Below are positions 5,650 through 42,954 of a DNA stretch of 64,000 bases, one piece after another. Origin of the DNA: Chryseobacterium candidae (lineage in GTDB: Bacteria > Bacteroidota > Bacteroidia > Flavobacteriales > Weeksellaceae); the NCBI RefSeq assembly GCF_004916905.1, contig NZ_SDLV01000025.1:186001-250000 (forward strand). The letters run 5' to 3'. A program made the position numbers and the translations under genes. The notes below the pieces were generated by a model. The model had not been told where the DNA came from. It searched no databases and saw nothing but the letters and a program-made list of their open reading frames with translations. Every line of letters begins with the position of its first letter. The stretch's first letter is position 1.

Positions 5650-5709
5650 TTATGAAAATGGTAAGCATTCCGGATTTTGTTTCGATATTTTAAATTTTCA
5701 CATAAAAAA

Positions 5710-5734
5710 GAGACTGCTTTTTTAAGGCAGTCTC
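5710..5734 (-). terminator. Terminator of the bacteriocin-like gene
   Basis: GAGACTGC and GCAGTCTC form a perfect 8-bp stem. It is followed on the minus strand by six T residues (complement of 5704-5709). It lies 24 nt beyond the stop of the bacteriocin-like peptide gene and may act in both directions between the convergent genes. Confidence 0.8.
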
Positions 5735-5758
5735 GTGATTTTAATGTCATGCTTACTG

Positions 5759-6043
5759 TTAGCAAGTAGAACCGCACTCAAGTAATTTGATGTGAACTAC
5801 ACCATTCACAACACATTGTGTCTGGCATAAAGCATTAGTAACAACAGTGCTTACACCGCCCACTGCTCCACCTACTGTAGATCCAACGCCGGAAACTACT
5901 CCACCAACGATAGTACCTACACCGCCTACTACTCCGCCCACTACTCCTCCTATTCCACCTAGAAGTCCGCCGATTGGATCCAGTAATCCATTACCTGAAA
6001 TAGCTTTTAATTCGTTTCTGTCTAATTTTTTTAAGTTTTTCAT
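5759..6043 (-). CDS. Bacteriocin-like peptide with GG-type leader, glycine zipper and Cys-rich tail
   Basis: A 94-residue peptide. Its N-terminus MKNLKKLDRNELKAISGNG is the leader-like sequence seen in Bacteroidota bacteriocin-like and RiPP precursors, where LKxISGG normally ends the leader; here GN replaces GG. The middle (about 20-65) is almost entirely Gly, Val, Ile, Ala and Ser in GG-x-V-GG repeats, a glycine zipper that could form a membrane helix. The tail holds four cysteines in the pattern C-x3-C, then 14 residues, then C-x3-C (CQTQC, then CGSTC at the terminus), suggesting two disulfides or modification. No ABC exporter, peptidase, immunity or modification gene is adjacent, so it is an orphan. 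The repeats are also visible in the DNA. Confidence 0.7.
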   Translation of the reverse strand: MKNLKKLDRNELKAISGNGLLDPIGGLLGGIGGVVGGVVGGVGTIVGGVVSGVGSTVGGAVGGVSTVVTNALCQTQCVVNGVVHIKLLECGSTC

Positions 6044-28679: not shown

Positions 28680-30197
28680 TTATGATAAAATTGATTTTGT
28701 TATCGTAATAAGGCTCATCAGGATCACTACTATTCCTACCACAACAAACATTTTCTTTGTTGGAAGTTTTGCCGTAAGCATTGCAGAAAACGGAGCAGTA
28801 AAAACACCACCCAGCAAAAGCCCCAAAACAATATTCCAGTGATGGATTCCTATTGTGAAGATGAATGTAATGGCACTGGTTACCGTCAATAAAAACTTGG
28901 CAACGGTAGAACTTCCTACTACATAACGGGGAATCCTTCCCTCTTTGATCAGTGTACCGGTTACCAATGGTCCCCATCCGCCACCTGCAAAAGAATCTAT
29001 AAAACCACCCGCCAGTCCCAATACTCTGAGATTGGTTCTTCTTTTGGATTTACCCTGTCCTGACTTTTTATCTTTGAATGCGTTTCTTAAAATATTAATA
29101 CCAAGATACAAGGTGTAGCAGGCAATAACAGGTTTTACAATATGAGCATAATGTTCACCGTAATGAGACAGTGTTAAAGCACCTACTACAGAGCCTACAA
29201 TAGCCAGCGGGAACAGCACCCATACCATTTTCTTATTGACATTTCCCAGTTTGTAATGACTGAAGCTTCCGGCGGCAGTAGTAAAAGACTCTGCAGAATG
29301 AATGCTTGCACTTACCACAGGTGGCGGAACATTCAGCAATAAAAGAATTGTGGTACAGATTACACCATATCCCATTCCCATGGATCCGGCCACAATTTCT
29401 GCCATAAAACCTGCAAAAAGCATCCAGTAAAAGATATGGCCGTCCTTATTCAGAAAATACTGAATATCATCTGCAAGATCAAATTGGTACACCAAAAGTC
29501 CAAATAACCCCAAAAGAAGTAAAACTCCAATAATGGCAAGATAAATATTAGCTTTTCTCTGGGCTGTTTTGGTAATATTGATTAGCTTTTCAATTTCCAT
29601 ATCAGGTTTTGAAGAAACCTTTCCATCAGACAGGTATTCTGTAGTAATTTTGTTGAGTTCTTTCACCTTATAATTGAAATCGCCTGTCAGTTGATGACGG
29701 ATATGCTGCATATTGTCCAACACATGATCCATCTCGTCAGGAATCACTTCGGTAAAGGTTTCTCTTAATCTTTTAGCGATGGTTGGAGATTTTCCATTGG
29801 TAGAAATGGCTATTTTAAGGCTTCCTTTTTTAACAATGGATCCTAAATAAAAGTCACAAAGATCAGGTTTATCGGCAACATTCACCAATATACTTTTTTT
29901 CTGGGCTTTTTCTCTGATTTCCCCAGCCAGCTCAATATCATTTACCGCAATAATGGCAAGATCTGTATCATTAAAATCATCATCATCATAGGCTCTTTCA
30001 TGAAGGGTTATATTGGAAAACTGATTTTGCAAGGTTCTGACCTCAGGGATAATCTCTTTCGCTACCAGTTTGATAGAAGTTTCCGGTGAATTACCCAAAA
30101 CAGATTCCAGTTTTTCAAGGGCAACCTTGCCACCGCCAATGATCAGCAGTGAAAGGTTTTCAAGTTTTAAAAATATGGGATATAAAGAATTGCTCAT
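28680..30197 (-). CDS. Fusion of Met8-type siroheme synthase domain and TauE/SafE permease
   Basis: The 505-residue protein starts with a precorrin-2 dehydrogenase/sirohydrochlorin ferrochelatase-like domain (about 1-200). That part shows LLIIGGGKVALEKLE (NAD-binding, 17-31), LVNVADKPDLCDFYLGSIVKKG and ISTNGKSPTIAKRLRE. From about residue 215 it becomes a multi-span TauE/SafE permease (PF01925), with MLFAGFMAEIVAGSMGMGYG, VSASIHSAESFTTAAGSFSH and LAGGFIDSFAGGGWGPLVTG. The first half would finish siroheme for the sulfite reductase, and the second would move sulfite, sulfonate or a related anion. Joining the two functions in one chain fits the end of a sulfate-assimilation locus. It lies 5 nt after the TonB receptor gene. 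Confidence 0.9.
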   Translation of the reverse strand: MSNSLYPIFLKLENLSLLIIGGGKVALEKLESVLGNSPETSIKLVAKEIIPEVRTLQNQFSNITLHERAYDDDDFNDTDLAIIAVNDIELAGEIREKAQKKSILVNVADKPDLCDFYLGSIVKKGSLKIAISTNGKSPTIAKRLRETFTEVIPDEMDHVLDNMQHIRHQLTGDFNYKVKELNKITTEYLSDGKVSSKPDMEIEKLINITKTAQRKANIYLAIIGVLLLLGLFGLLVYQFDLADDIQYFLNKDGHIFYWMLFAGFMAEIVAGSMGMGYGVICTTILLLLNVPPPVVSASIHSAESFTTAAGSFSHYKLGNVNKKMVWVLFPLAIVGSVVGALTLSHYGEHYAHIVKPVIACYTLYLGINILRNAFKDKKSGQGKSKRRTNLRVLGLAGGFIDSFAGGGWGPLVTGTLIKEGRIPRYVVGSSTVAKFLLTVTSAITFIFTIGIHHWNIVLGLLLGGVFTAPFSAMLTAKLPTKKMFVVVGIVVILMSLITITKSILS

Positions 30198-30202
30198 CCT
30201 GA

Positions 30203-33079
30203 TTACAGTTTTAAGTCATAAGTAAAAGCGAGATAATACAGTCCTCCGATTTCAGGACCTGCGGCATACTGAAAATAACGGCGGTTCAGTAAATTGGTAG
30301 CTCCAATCTTAATATTCGCATGAATTTCAGGCAGTTTCCATGTTGCCTGGGCATCAATGGTGTAATAAGCCGGAATTGCTCCCGATGCCAAAGGACTTTC
30401 CCACATAAATCCACTCTGCCATCTTGCGACAAGCGTAAATCCTATATTTTTAACAATTTCTCTGTTTCCTACACTTACATTCACCATCCATTTCGGAGTG
30501 TTGAAAGCAGTGATAAACAGATCTGAAGTATTACTGGAAGCCAGATCATTATAAGAAACATTGGTATTGATATTATAATTTCCTGTAATATTATAACGAA
30601 TCCCTAAAGATGTTCCATAGCTTTTGTAGGTACTATTGCTGTTCGTATAAACCCTATATCTGTCCTGCTTGCTTCTATCGAGCATCGCAAGAACAGCAGT
30701 ATTGCTTCCTACCTGGCTGTTTTTTGGAACCGCCACTTCTACCTGCCCAAGGAATCCTTCATAAATGTTATAATAGAAATCCCAGTCCAGCACCAGTTTA
30801 TTATTGAAAAAAGTAGACTTATACCCTACTTCAAATGAATTGATCTTTTCCGGCTGTAACTTCTGCAGATTGGCTGCCGTTAAAAGTTGTTTGTTATCCT
30901 GAGCTGCCTGAGCCTGGGTTTTTCCTGCATCTACATCTGCATTCACAGCTGAGGTGAATTTATCAATGGAAGCCAGCGTATAGGAATTTTCCAGATAACC
31001 TAATCCGTCATTTACTTTTGAAAGACCTCCCACTCTTCTTACATTTCCGTTGTTGACGAATGAAAGTGCTTCAAATAACGAAGGAAAACGATATCCGTTT
31101 TGAAAAGAAGCTCTGAAGTTATGCTGCTTTACAGGAGAATAGACCACACTTATTCTTGGATTCAGTTTAGCTTCAAATTCCGGGTTTCTGTCGATCCGTA
31201 AAGCGGCATTGATTTTTAATTTATCATCAAAGAAAAGTCTGGTAATTTGTGCAAAAGCTCCATATTTCTGATAAATAACATCTTTCCCGAAGGTACCGTT
31301 GGCTAAAGGAATATTTCTTTCATTGACCGGACGATTGAAATCAACAAAATTATTTCCATCCGGAGTAATGCTGTACAAACGGTAGTCTACACCGGCAATA
31401 AGGTTGAAAATTTTCATAAACCTGCTGAAATCGTAGGTAAGTTCCCCCTGATAAAAACGGGATTTCTGTTCAAGTTTTGCTCCTCCTGTTGCCGGAGCTC
31501 CAGCTACTCCTCCATTGGCTGAATCCCAGTTATTAATTCCGATGATGGTATTTTTTAATTGCTCAAAGGCTGCCGTTCCCGGTACAACTCTGTTTTTATC
31601 TGCTTGCTGACGGGCCAGGATAAATGCATCGTTAAGATTCGCACCTGCATTCAGATTATTCTGAAGAGCGGTCTGAAATATATTTTTCCAGTTGGTATTA
31701 GAAAGATTCGTCAGATCAAGATTATCTGCCAAAGGTTTCAGGTTATAAGAATCTCCTGTATTTTCTATGGATACATAAGCTCTGAAGGTCAGTTCTTTTC
31801 CTGTCAGTTCTACTTTATGATTCTGAACCGTGGCATTTTGCAAACGGATTTTATTTCCTCTCTGGAAAGTTCCATCCAGTAAGCCATAGCGGTACACATA
31901 AGAAGTTCTCCACTGATCTCCGAAACGGTAATATAATCCTGCGTCAAACTTGATATTTTTCACATCAGGACTCACCAGATCTTTCTCCAGATATCCTGTC
32001 CTCGAAACGTTGAATGTAGTAGGTTTCCCATTGTAATCCACTTTTACGGCTACACGATTATTTCTTTCATCACCGTATTTATTCCAAAGGTCTTCTGCCG
32101 GATTATTGGCGAGTGCAAAATTGGGATTGGCAGTGACTAATGATGCCGGATTCTGATCGGTCTGATTATTGGAAATCCAATCTGTTCCGCTGAAATAGGA
32201 AGCATTCACCTTAACGGCTAAGTTTTTATTAATCACTTTTGCAAAACGCATGGCACTTTCTCCCAGAGAACTTATTTTATGGTTCACATTGTCTACATGA
32301 TTCACTCCGCCACGGAAATAAACACTTATTCCTTCAGACGTAAACGGATCTTTGGTCTGTAAGCTTGCCAGTCCGTTGATGGCATTCATTCCGTACAACG
32401 CTGAAGCCGCTCCCGGAGTGACTTCCATCGACTGGATATCCAGTTCCGTAGGTCCTATTGCATTTCCCAATGGTACACCCAACGTTGCCGACTGTACATC
32501 TACCCCGTCCACCAGCTGCATAAACCTGAAATTATTAGGCGAATTGAAACCTCTCGAATTAGGAATCTTTAAAGTAAGACTTGAGGTTAAAAGCTGTAAC
32601 CCCTTTACATTTTCCAATGTCTCATAGAATGAGGCTGCCGGACTTTCCCTGATGGTTTTGATATCAATTTTTTCAATGGCTATAGGTGATCTTAATATCT
32701 TTTCCGGAACTCTGGATGCAGAGATCACTACGTCATCAATAATGGTATTCTGAGGGTTAAGTCCTACTGTTATTTTATTGGAAGGTGAAAGTATTTCAAC
32801 GGTTTGACCTGTGAATCCATCTTTCTGAATTATCACCCGGAAGGGAATGGTAACTCTTGTTCTGAGCTTAAAGTTACCTGCCTGATCCGTTAATGCGGTA
32901 TCCTGCGTGTTTTCGATCTGTACTTTTACAGAATCGAGACCTTTGTGTGTACCTGTATTTTTGATGCTTCCGCTAAGCTCTATGAGTTGCTGCTGTGCTT
33001 CCGCCAGGTTAAAAAATAGAAATGTAAATGCGATAATGCCTGCTTTAGGTAGAAAATTTCCCTGCTTTTTGTTTTTCAT
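30203..33079 (-). CDS. TonB-dependent outer-membrane receptor
   Basis: The 958-residue protein has a signal peptide (to AEAQQ, about residue 29). A carboxypeptidase-regulatory-like domain (about 35-110; GSIKNTGTHKGLDSVKVQIE) precedes the plug (about 125-235), which contains VVISASRVPEKILRSPIAIE and ALYGMNAINGLASLQTKDP. A large beta-barrel runs to the C-terminus. It lacks a SusD partner, so it is a stand-alone receptor. The substrate is unknown. Its place between cysI and the Met8-TauE fusion, with a Cys-codon leader ORF upstream, suggests uptake of a sulfur source. Confidence 0.9.
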   Translation of the reverse strand: MKNKKQGNFLPKAGIIAFTFLFFNLAEAQQQLIELSGSIKNTGTHKGLDSVKVQIENTQDTALTDQAGNFKLRTRVTIPFRVIIQKDGFTGQTVEILSPSNKITVGLNPQNTIIDDVVISASRVPEKILRSPIAIEKIDIKTIRESPAASFYETLENVKGLQLLTSSLTLKIPNSRGFNSPNNFRFMQLVDGVDVQSATLGVPLGNAIGPTELDIQSMEVTPGAASALYGMNAINGLASLQTKDPFTSEGISVYFRGGVNHVDNVNHKISSLGESAMRFAKVINKNLAVKVNASYFSGTDWISNNQTDQNPASLVTANPNFALANNPAEDLWNKYGDERNNRVAVKVDYNGKPTTFNVSRTGYLEKDLVSPDVKNIKFDAGLYYRFGDQWRTSYVYRYGLLDGTFQRGNKIRLQNATVQNHKVELTGKELTFRAYVSIENTGDSYNLKPLADNLDLTNLSNTNWKNIFQTALQNNLNAGANLNDAFILARQQADKNRVVPGTAAFEQLKNTIIGINNWDSANGGVAGAPATGGAKLEQKSRFYQGELTYDFSRFMKIFNLIAGVDYRLYSITPDGNNFVDFNRPVNERNIPLANGTFGKDVIYQKYGAFAQITRLFFDDKLKINAALRIDRNPEFEAKLNPRISVVYSPVKQHNFRASFQNGYRFPSLFEALSFVNNGNVRRVGGLSKVNDGLGYLENSYTLASIDKFTSAVNADVDAGKTQAQAAQDNKQLLTAANLQKLQPEKINSFEVGYKSTFFNNKLVLDWDFYYNIYEGFLGQVEVAVPKNSQVGSNTAVLAMLDRSKQDRYRVYTNSNSTYKSYGTSLGIRYNITGNYNINTNVSYNDLASSNTSDLFITAFNTPKWMVNVSVGNREIVKNIGFTLVARWQSGFMWESPLASGAIPAYYTIDAQATWKLPEIHANIKIGATNLLNRRYFQYAAGPEIGGLYYLAFTYDLKL

Positions 33080-33180
33080 TTTTTCTTCATTTTTTAGGTT
33101 GAGAATGAAGCTGTCTGAATTTTTACTTCTATGATGAAAGTCTTATATGCTGTATAATATTATCATTGAAGGGCTTAGAA

Positions 33181-33233
33181 TTCCTCCTTTGGAGGGGTGG
33201 TGAAAATTCAAAGAATTTTTGACGGGGTGGTTT
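33181..33233 (+). repeat. GGAGGGGTGG / GACGGGGTGGTT intergenic repeat, copy 1
   Basis: The sequence begins TTCCTCCTTTGGAGGGGTGG, continues through an AAATTC-rich centre and ends GAATTTTTGACGGGGTGGTT. A close copy in the same orientation lies at 60281-60334. It is non-coding, with a small CCTCC/GGAGG hairpin. Confidence 0.75.
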
Positions 33234-33285: not shown

Positions 33286-33351
33286 TCCGGTAAAGTTTCA
33301 TAATAATTTAAAAAAACTTCAAACAGCTTAGATTGTATTGTTATTTAAGAA

Positions 33352-33369
33352 TCAACAACACATACACAT
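33352..33369 (-). CDS. Five-codon Cys leader peptide (MCMCC), candidate cysteine-responsive attenuator
   Basis: On the minus strand ATG TGT ATG TGT TGT TGA begins at 33369 and encodes Met-Cys-Met-Cys-Cys. AGGGAG (complement of 33374-33379) lies 4 nt upstream, an unusually good Shine-Dalgarno for this genome. The ORF sits 70 nt after the cysI stop and about 270 nt before the TonB receptor, both in the same orientation. Three Cys codons and two Met codons in five, inside a sulfur locus, suggest translation-dependent sensing of Cys or Met. I do not see a clear terminator immediately downstream, so the mechanism is open. Confidence 0.5.
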   Translation of the reverse strand: MCMCC

Positions 33370-33439
33370 TCGTCTCCCTGAATGAAGAGGTTGAGTTTTT
33401 TTGTTTTTTTTCAGATCATAATGAAAAGTAGCCATATAA

Positions 33440-35116
33440 TTAATTTAAAGTGTGTAAGTAACGGTATGAAAAATCGCCAAATGTTTCTTCTGCCAGCCTT
33501 TTCTGTACATATATTCCGAAAAGTTCATCCAGAGTGGTAAGAATTTCTTCTTCATTAATATTTTCTTTAAATTTTGTGTTCAGTCTCATTCCTAATCGGT
33601 CTCCTCCGATGTGAAGGTTATATTTCCCATAAGCTGTCCCAACAAATCCGATTTCAGCATTTGGGGATCTTCCGCAGCCATTAGGACAGCCGGTCATACG
33701 GATGGTAATATCTTCTTCCAACAGACCATATTTTTCAAGAATAGGTTCTATTTTCGTGACCAAAGAAGGCAGATAACGCTGAGCTTCCGCTAAAGCCAGT
33801 GAACAGGTATTCAGGGCAACACATGCAACAGAATTTTTACGTAAGGCACTTGCGTTGTTGGTATGTTCTGAAATTCCGTGTTCTTCTAAAATGTTTTCAA
33901 TTTCGGGCTTATCTTTTTCATCAATGTCAGCCAGGATAAGATTCTGGTTACAGGTAAAACGGAAATTGGCTTTACCCGTCTGTGCGATTTTTAACAAACC
34001 TGATTTTAAAGGATATTCTGCTGTATTAAGGATTCTTCCGTGCTCTACAAATACGGTGTAAAACCATTTTCCTTCATGATTCTGAATCCAGCCGTAGCGG
34101 TCTTTTCTTTGTGTAAAATTAAATTCTCTGGCAGGTTCAAAGCTGAAGCCTGTTCTTTTTTCTACTTCAGCCCTATACTGGTCGATACCCAATTTATCAA
34201 TTGTGTATTTTAATCTTGATAATTTTCGGTCGCTTCTGTTTCCAAAATCCCTTTGTACTGTGATGATTTCATAGACAGCTTTCAATACTTTTTCTTCGGT
34301 ATCTACAAATCCAAGGATGGATGCAAGACGTGCGTAGGTAGCTTCATTTCCGTGAGTTGCTCCTAATCCTCCTCCGGCAGCGATATTGTACCCTACAATT
34401 TTATCATTTTCGATAATCGCAATTAAGGCAATATCATTGATGAATACATCCACATCATTATTGGGCGGAACAGCAATTCCTATTTTCAGTTTTCTAGGAA
34501 GATATCTGTCCTGATACAGAGGATCTTCCTCTGCTTTACGGTCTACCAGAAGTTCATCATCAATCCAGATGTCATAATAAGATTTCGTTTTAGGAAGGCA
34601 CATTTCACTGATTTTTCCAGCCAGTTCGTAAGCTTCCTGCTGTAAAGGTGATTCAGAAGGATTCGCTGTACAGGTTACATTTCTGTTGACATCTCCACAA
34701 GCCGCAATCGAATCCAGATGCTGAAGATTGAAGCTCTGAATAGTAGGTCTTAAATGAGACTTTAATATTCCATGCAGCTGAATGGTTTGTCTTGTGGTTA
34801 CTTTTATAGTTCCTGTGGAATGATCTTCAGCGGTTTCATTCAATCCTACCCATTGTTGCGGAGTTAAAAAACCACCGGGAAGCCTAAGCCTGATCATGTA
34901 AGAATACAGCCATTCCAGTTTTTTAGAGACACGCTCTTCCCTGCGGTCTCTGTCGTCCTGTTGGTACATTCCATGAAATTTGATCAGCGTCTGGTCATCT
35001 TCCCTTATGGCTCCGGTAAATTGATCAGCAAGGCTTTCTTTTAAAGTTCCTCTGAGCCCGTTGCTGTTGGTCTTAATCCTTTCTACCGGTGAAAGGTTTT
35101 CTTTATCGTTGTTCAT
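33440..35116 (-). CDS. cysI: Assimilatory sulfite reductase, hemoprotein subunit
   Basis: The 558-residue protein reduces sulfite to sulfide by six electrons using siroheme coupled to a 4Fe-4S cluster. Cluster and siroheme ligands are Cys432, Cys438 (CVALNTCSLA), Cys477 and Cys481 (TGCPNGCGRS). Both ferredoxin-like repeats and the siroheme-contact KVTTRQTIQLHG (about 105-116) are present. Length matches CysI. It works with the flavoprotein subunit encoded 33 nt upstream, taking electrons from NADPH. It is the last of the core cys genes before the repeat-rich gap. Confidence 0.95.
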   Translation of the reverse strand: MNNDKENLSPVERIKTNSNGLRGTLKESLADQFTGAIREDDQTLIKFHGMYQQDDRDRREERVSKKLEWLYSYMIRLRLPGGFLTPQQWVGLNETAEDHSTGTIKVTTRQTIQLHGILKSHLRPTIQSFNLQHLDSIAACGDVNRNVTCTANPSESPLQQEAYELAGKISEMCLPKTKSYYDIWIDDELLVDRKAEEDPLYQDRYLPRKLKIGIAVPPNNDVDVFINDIALIAIIENDKIVGYNIAAGGGLGATHGNEATYARLASILGFVDTEEKVLKAVYEIITVQRDFGNRSDRKLSRLKYTIDKLGIDQYRAEVEKRTGFSFEPAREFNFTQRKDRYGWIQNHEGKWFYTVFVEHGRILNTAEYPLKSGLLKIAQTGKANFRFTCNQNLILADIDEKDKPEIENILEEHGISEHTNNASALRKNSVACVALNTCSLALAEAQRYLPSLVTKIEPILEKYGLLEEDITIRMTGCPNGCGRSPNAEIGFVGTAYGKYNLHIGGDRLGMRLNTKFKENINEEEILTTLDELFGIYVQKRLAEETFGDFSYRYLHTLN

Positions 35117-42477: not shown

Positions 42478-42510
42478 CAAATATATATAAAATTCTATAA
42501 CTCCTATCAA
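42478..42510 (-). promoter_or_regulatory. Promoter of the cysH operon
   Basis: The minus strand reads TTG (complement of 42508-42510), 22 nt, then TATATTTG (complement of 42478-42485), a full match to TAnnTTTG. Transcription would start about 15-20 nt before the cysH ATG. Confidence 0.65.
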
Positions 42511-42523
42511 AATAGTAGAATTT
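42490..42523. promoter_or_regulatory. Palindromic operator over the cysH promoter, candidate Rrf2 site
   Basis: AAATTCTA (42490-42497) and TAGAATTT (42516-42523) are perfect inverted arms 18 nt apart, with CTAT/ATAG inside. The repeat spans the spacer and the -33 element, so a bound repressor would block the promoter. The Rrf2 gene next door is the obvious candidate. Confidence 0.5.
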
Positions 42524-42537
42524 AAATGTAAAAAATT

Positions 42538-42954
42538 TTATTTTTCATTGATAAACTTTGTCAGAGTGGCTTCCATCATACTTTTTCTGGTTTTTTCACG
42601 AACGATGATTAATTCTTTTCTCAGATAGCAGATTGCTTCATCAACACAATCATCGCATGGTTCGTAAAAATTTAAAGATACACAAGGCGTAAGTGCAATG
42701 GGTCCGTCAAAAATACGGTAAATATCTGCTAATGAGACCTCATCTGGTGATTTTAAAAGATAATACCCTCCTATTTTACCCTGCTTGCTGTTGACAAGTT
42801 TGGCTCTTTTAAGTTCAAGAAGGATTTGTTCCAGAAATTTCTTGGGAATGTTCTCGTCCTGTGCAATAATGGAAGTTGGCAGAAAGCCCTGGTTATAATT
42901 CCTTGCTAATCTGACCATTGCTTTAAGCGCATATTTGCAACGTTTCGACATCAT
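42538..42954 (-). CDS. Rrf2-family regulator, probable repressor of the cys locus
   Basis: The 138-residue protein has the Rrf2 winged helix (about 1-75; CKYALKAMVRLARNYNQGF, then IPKKFLEQILLELKRAKLV and KIGGYYLLKSP). A central cysteine group is CVSLNFYEPCDDC-x6-C (about 91-109). It may bind a metal or Fe-S cluster, or act as a redox/cysteine sensor as in IscR- or CymR-like members. It is 83 nt upstream of cysH on the same strand, with the palindrome in between. The role as cys regulator is inferred from position. Confidence 0.85.
   Translation of the reverse strand: MMSKRCKYALKAMVRLARNYNQGFLPTSIIAQDENIPKKFLEQILLELKRAKLVNSKQGKIGGYYLLKSPDEVSLADIYRIFDGPIALTPCVSLNFYEPCDDCVDEAICYLRKELIIVREKTRKSMMEATLTKFINEK

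Follow-up and report, generated by a model that had tools for sequence, protein, structure and literature searches.

A putative cysteine-responsive translational attenuator between cysI and a TonB-dependent receptor gene in Chryseobacterium

Leader ORFs with Cys codons were predicted in Actinobacteria, where no conserved terminator-capable hairpin was reported (PMC1262725), and ribosome occupancy has been seen on predicted mycobacterial leaders of this kind (PMC4633059). The mycobacterial polycysteine leader ORFs are cysteine-responsive according to Canestrari et al. 2020, as cited in PMC13236596 and PMC9031893. A Cys uORF with an intrinsic terminator, the uORFC-8-2 motif, precedes cysS in Rhodobacterales (PMC8632094). 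For amino-acid operons of Flavobacterium psychrophilum, the relevant passage of PMC9723704 hints at leader-peptide attenuation and describes regulated transcription elongation. We found no cysteine leader described in Bacteroidota in the open-licence literature, although such an absence is not proof. Translational attenuators of the erm and cat type depend on an antibiotic-stalled leader ribosome and a hidden Shine-Dalgarno sequence. The principle of erm/cat-type attenuation is stated in PMC13236596.

Here we describe a leader ORF in a sulfate-assimilation operon of Chryseobacterium, which we propose, with a probability of about 0.8, to be a cysteine-responsive translational attenuator. Like the mycobacterial leaders it is short, carries Cys codons close to its stop and lies upstream of sulfur/cysteine genes, and the cysteine-dependent attenuation predicted here has its counterpart in what others, in the passages cited above, describe as translation attenuation. 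The mycobacterial leaders are leaderless at the transcript start and have contiguous Cys codons, whereas the Chryseobacterium leader lies directly behind cysI and, since only 4 nt separate the two ORFs, is probably internal to its transcript. Its target, unlike theirs, is an outer-membrane receptor, and a covarying sequestering helix was identified in Chryseobacterium where the actinobacterial study had no conserved terminator-type hairpin. With uORFC-8-2 it shares an upstream ORF whose tandem Cys codons lie inside a stem; however, that motif is an alphaproteobacterial transcriptional attenuator with an intrinsic terminator, and the Chryseobacterium leader has no terminator-like site. The likeness to erm and cat is a stalled leader ribosome that, here in a model, would mask one RNA strand and free the start of the next gene, but the signal is predicted to be uncharged tRNA-Cys and the sequestered start region is A/U-rich without an identified Shine-Dalgarno sequence. 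The F. psychrophilum operons belong to the same phylum and have leader peptides before biosynthetic genes, while the passage on them contains no cysteine leader and no receptor target (PMC9723704). The locus probably represents a conserved, intra-operonic translational attenuator in Bacteroidota that responds to cysteine and hides a start region in which no Shine-Dalgarno sequence is evident.

The original prediction was of a five-codon ORF encoding only Met and Cys, preceded by AGGGAG as its Shine-Dalgarno sequence and placed between cysI and a TonB receptor/Met8-TauE pair. ATG TGT ATG TGT TGT TGA is present exactly as reported, at 33369..33352 of the minus strand, and the MCMCC-stop string is unique in the window (the whole 64,000-nt stretch of DNA analysed, both strands scanned). 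Family calls agree with the proposed placement (Table 1). The reading frame of MCMCC, on the other hand, continues upstream without a stop as far as an ATG at 33435, so that the supposed separate ORF is the C-terminal tail of a 27-codon leader with three Cys among its last four sense codons. AGGGAG itself lies within codons, spanning the last base of Ser(TCA), all of Gly(GGG) and the first two bases of Arg(AGA), and in relatives the site reads AGGCAG, AGGCGG, AAGCGG, AGGTGA or AGGGAT. Given this variation there is no conserved Shine-Dalgarno sequence; initiation in Bacteroidota rarely uses one. The open frame and the variable AGGGAG together rule out a free-standing five-codon ORF with its own Shine-Dalgarno sequence. 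The comparative search suggested alongside the prediction did recover a conserved short ORF with Cys codons in relatives, though not the AGGGAG, and we conclude that the idea behind the prediction largely holds while its anatomical details do not. A peptide search found one copy and no second leader in the genome, while the pattern TGYNNNTGYTGYTRR, with 54 matches genome-wide, was too unspecific to be of use. No NCBIfam model, those of Cys-rich leaders included, matched the peptide at E <= 10, and Rfam gave no match in the window or in three relatives.

Table 1. Features of the leader locus and adjacent genes, in 5' to 3' order along the transcript.
Feature	Coordinates	Strand	Basis or remark
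cysI, upstream gene	33440..35116	minus	TIGR02041 756.3 bits (cut-off 756.55); PRK13504 above cut-off
Leader ORF, 27 codons, MATFHYDLKKNKKTQPLHSGRRMCMCC then stop	33352..33435	minus	ATG 4 nt past cysI stop
P1c 5' strand, UCUUCAUU, leader codons	33381..33388	minus	Predicted fold of window RNA
P1a 5' strand, AGG of Leu/Ser-Gly codons	33377..33379	minus	Fold, RNAalifold, compensatory changes
P1b 5' strand, GAAUG, last two Arg-codon bases and Met codon	33367..33371	minus	99.3% of cells paired
Putative sensor core, Met-Cys-Met-Cys-Cys-stop (the reported feature)	33352..33369	minus	Cys codons kept, TGT/TGC exchange
P2 5' strand, GUUGUUG, last two Cys codons and stop	33353..33359	minus	95.9% of cells paired
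P2 3' strand, UAACAAU	33337..33343	minus	Fold, RNAalifold
P3 5' strand, AAGCUGUUUGAA, long-spacer species only	33318..33329	minus	Fold, RNAalifold; G-C to A-U compensation in L104
Variable insert inside P3 loop	33120..33317	minus	Holds dispersed repeat 33203-33229
P3 3' strand, UUCAGACAGCUU	33108..33119	minus	Fold, RNAalifold
P1b 3' strand, CAUUC, noncoding yet conserved	33103..33107	minus	Alignment, RNAalifold
P1a/P1c 3' strand, CCUAAAAAAUGAAGA, receptor translation-start region	33084..33098	minus	Ends 5 nt before ATG
TonB-dependent receptor, 958 aa, putative regulated gene	30203..33079	minus	Pfam Plug and TonB_dep_Rec barrel
Met8 (siroheme N-domain)-TauE fusion	28680..30197	minus	Start 5 nt past receptor stop

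The receptor and Met8-TauE genes are so closely spaced, at 5 nt, that co-regulation by coupling is likely. Searches with the receptor returned weak matches to colicin I receptor structures, and scores against models of haem and B12 receptors were below cut-off. The receptor contains no cysteine and could be made in cysteine shortage.

A receptor match was present in 61 of 118 Chryseobacterium genomes, one of them (G155) a paralogue at 44%, and a Cys leader stood ahead of the TonB receptor in 60/60 sampled genomes with a receptor orthologue. The core motif CGAATGTGYATGTGYTGY occurs in 53/118 of these genomes, as a single copy each and always directly upstream of the receptor; the other seven orthologue loci carry the variants MWMCC, MCVCC, MCMCS, MCTCC (twice) and MCICC and a C. 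soli-type MCC leader. Within the same set the core was found in 0 genomes without the receptor and its reversed control pattern gave 0 matches, and the association between core and receptor is far beyond chance. At almost every Chryseobacterium locus the leader ends in RMCMCC or GIRMCMCCSLIDDA before the stop. The gap between the cysI stop and the leader ATG is 4 nt in 44/60 loci and <=6 nt in 55/60, and nearly all relatives have a cysI-like C-terminus directly upstream of the leader. A scan of named genomes with a downstream TonB receptor yielded 80 loci, and a protein search of 198 family genomes gave convincing peptide scores in the same genus only.

In Chryseobacterium sp. E1 (L112, around locus position 5650-5740) the poly-A run of the leader is one A short, so that the core and the usual ATG are in different frames, which could reflect a sequencing error, a real loss or slippage on the A run. 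The receptor in a record labelled Elizabethkingia miricola (L083) resembles that of Chryseobacterium (85%) and is preceded, upstream of locus position 6001, by a leader ending LGIRMCMCC before the stop, with a spacer of >400 nt and no matched CCUAAA strand; the record may be mislabelled or the locus the product of transfer.

Pairing between the leader RNA and the receptor start region is predicted as well. In helix P1, UUUUAGGN and GAAUG, just 5' of the first Cys codon, pair with CAUUY and NCCUAAAA before the receptor start, and folds of the natural leader-to-receptor RNA gave the same arrangement of P1 and P2, with or without P3, in ~23 species. RNAalifold recovered P1a, P1b, P2 and P3 from the long-spacer alignment, in which 95.7% of cells pair as compared with 31-54% after a slide of one to three columns. 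Two-sided changes are few in this group (2 pairs), its Gly-wobble position does not covary, and the formal covariation is modest and carries little weight alone. The 5' strand of P1a is UUUUAGGN in most relatives, that of P1c has lineage-specific matching changes in its partner strand, and changes in P2 are mostly one-sided. A C-A mismatch in UUCAGG/CCUAAA weakens P1a in the species of the window, where the pairing relies on P1c and P1b. The dispersed repeat in the insert, CACCCCGTCAAAAATTCTTTGAATTTT, has 15 copies in the genome at <=2 mismatches, and the insert is missing in species whose core lies 61-69 nt from the receptor start. P3 would loop out this repeat-bearing insert, so that the attenuator may tolerate repeat insertions.

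For the short-spacer group, the first RNAalifold run recovered only P2 because MAFFT had misplaced the CCUAAA anchor in some rows, and pairing was then scored with anchored arms instead of the MAFFT alignment. Matches between the Gly-wobble base and its partner number 15/20 in this group, compared with 12.0 +/- 1.1 after permutation. Across groups the two bases vary in concert: on the receptor tree GGG/CCC changed to GGA/UCC at least twice independently, in L108 and in the clade of L080, L089 and L090, and in L072 AGU/ACU replaces GGU/ACC, a G-C to A-U change. Cognate leader/start duplexes reached -152 kcal/mol against -130 +/- 6.7 kcal/mol for swapped ones (p = 3e-4, 12 sequence groups), with a mean z of -3.8 against shuffled partners. 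The comparative and thermodynamic evidence argues that leader RNA hides the receptor's start region, as expected of a translational attenuator.

We modelled the effect of a leader ribosome on the receptor start region (-20..+9) in 20 species. The mean cost of opening this region is 8.4 kcal/mol without a ribosome; with a ribosome waiting at Cys1, Cys2 or Cys3 it falls to 3.0, 3.6 or 4.9 kcal/mol, and after the ribosome has passed it is predicted to return to ~7 kcal/mol. Other genes of the window have mean opening costs of 4.8-5.3 kcal/mol. When the leader arm was shuffled the modelled cost was ~2-4 kcal/mol and the ribosome no longer mattered. A ribosome at the control codons thus frees the start region in silico, as in translational attenuation.

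These results suggest the following mechanism. A ribosome that ends cysI would start, by coupling, on the 27-codon leader with its R-M-C-M-C-C-stop end; coupling to the cysI stop 4 nt upstream is the more likely route of leader initiation. With plentiful Cys-tRNA the ribosome would pass the Cys codons and depart, and the freed UUUUAGGN...GAAUG could pair with CAUUY...NCCUAAAA, ~8-18 nt before the receptor start codon, so that P1 would block receptor initiation. When Cys-tRNA is short the ribosome would stall at the Cys codons and cover the 5' strand of P1, leaving the receptor start free, and the receptor would be made, as would Met8-TauE via tight coupling. From the codons and the operon we infer that cysteine is the signal, and its shortage would lead to more receptor. 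Against this, cysI itself has 8 Cys codons, and cysteine shortage could therefore slow ribosomes before they reach the leader.

The search for an intrinsic terminator between leader and receptor found 0 terminator-like sites in the spacer, the distance from core to receptor start codon is only 61-69 nt in several short-spacer species, and the conserved pairing stops at the receptor start region without a U-run. All three findings weigh against transcriptional attenuation. In that reading the leader would govern a termination event, probably Rho-dependent, upstream of or inside the receptor gene; a stall at the Cys codons would prevent it, and P1 would be just one element of the switch. In its favor, blocked receptor translation would by itself entail Rho-dependent loss of the untranslated mRNA, and a Rho mechanism was once put forward for the mycobacterial Cys leaders for want of terminators (PMC1262725). 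Because of the missing terminator-like sites and the short spacers we favor translational attenuation and regard control by termination as unlikely, although it is the strongest of the competing explanations.

We also asked how selection acts on the leader peptide. Cys1 and Cys3 are each conserved in 56/57 distinct sequences and Cys2 in 57/57, and so the conservation check that had been put forward with the original prediction did not overturn it. Among 30 distinct 27-codon leaders pN is 0.000 in the RMCMCC core and pS is 0.43 in its Cys codons, which underwent synonymous change only, whereas the first 20 codons after the start are in near-free drift (pN/pS 0.85). As in known leader-peptide attenuators, the Cys codons are clustered near the end of the ORF and the control codons are conserved while the peptide body drifts; linkage to a sulfate-assimilation gene row ending in cysI-receptor-Met8/TauE also fits such a role. 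The middle Met gives way to I, V, F or T in 4 of 57 distinct sequences, which rules out methionine as a co-signal. The Arg codon before the core Met is CGA in 57/57 distinct sequences although CGA is the rarest Arg codon in the neighbouring genes (4/140), and this invariance points to a constraint at the RNA level.

Strict conservation of RM and CC in most Chryseobacterium might also be expected if a metal or redox signal, and not the supply of Cys-tRNA, made the R-M-C-M-C-C chain itself arrest the ribosome, as thiols could sense metals or oxidants. However, M, I, V, F and T all occur at the middle position, a Cys is replaced by W or S in single sequences, and the leaders of distant families (RRRCCSC, DRCCC, ACCCC, CCCCR) have in common only Cys runs after Arg. 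The P1b RNA strand accounts for the conservation of Arg-Met, given that CGA, a rare codon, is itself invariant, and we consider nascent-chain arrest improbable. That a Cys-codon leader tunes the receptor and the permease to cysteine is, by contrast, strongly supported by comparative sequence analysis (the conserved ORF, selection on its Cys codons and the association with the receptor gene) and by RNA structure, through the predicted pairing and its compensatory changes.

Cys leaders of other design precede receptor orthologues outside the genus. Before the stop these end in DRCCC in Flavihumibacter, in RRRCCSC, RRCCSSR and NRCCSRA in Hymenobacter, in CCCCR in Rufibacter and in ACCCCR, ACCCC and NRCC in further genomes. 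Among the distant loci scanned, this receptor was the only gene found with an intergenic CC-tailed short ORF ahead of it; leaders that overlap a predicted long ORF (L115 and L119 are examples) were filtered out, and in L122 the nearest called long ORF start was that of a different ORF. Receptor orthologues from three Flavobacterium, and from several other genera, have no Cys leader. Start-region pairing extends to some loci of Hymenobacter, Flavihumibacter and the C. soli type and was not seen in Rufibacter and L162, and we do not claim an attenuation mechanism for the distant families. The RNA structure is conserved and the spacer accumulates dispersed repeats, yet it is highly improbable that the ORF just accompanies a structured intergenic element such as an mRNA processing or protein-binding site, without any sensing, when its Cys codons show synonymous changes alone in an otherwise drifting peptide, unrelated Cys-run leaders recur ahead of orthologous receptors in other families, and no other gene in the distant loci scanned has an intergenic CC-tailed short ORF ahead of it.

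We lean toward a broader view of the Cys-codon leaders of Bacteroidota as intra-operonic translational attenuators, which, in an operon already turned on for sulfate assimilation, would form a second, ribosome-read cysteine gate behind cysI and control synthesis of a costly TonB receptor by sequestering an A/U-rich start region, with independently shaped leaders across families. For a phylum without a cysteine leader found in the literature this offers a testable cysteine switch, and regulation of this kind would link an uncharacterised TonB receptor to cysteine/sulfur supply. Attenuation that hides a start without an evident Shine-Dalgarno sequence would bear on start-site choice in Bacteroidota, and the Cys-tailed short ORF may serve as a simple marker for more sulfur transporters in the phylum.

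Two further observations concern related loci. C. soli-type receptors (65% identity; L097 and L098) have another leader family, FMDMCCC... and FSSMCC-stop, which may be an independent design of the same switch. Some receptor orthologues without a Cys leader carry a palindromic element resembling AGTCTACTAAAATAGTAGA. In the window a palindrome-like CTATCAAAATAGTAG lies at 42504-42518, upstream of cysH and next to an Rrf2-family regulator gene (42538-42954) whose score with the CymR model, 70 bits, is below the cut-off of 195. Elements similar to CTATCAAAATAGTAG, for example AGTCTACTAAAATAGTAGA, are found ahead of the receptor orthologues in L106, L107 and L155, and the sequence similarity suggests an Rrf2/CymR-like sulfur regulon in Bacteroidota.
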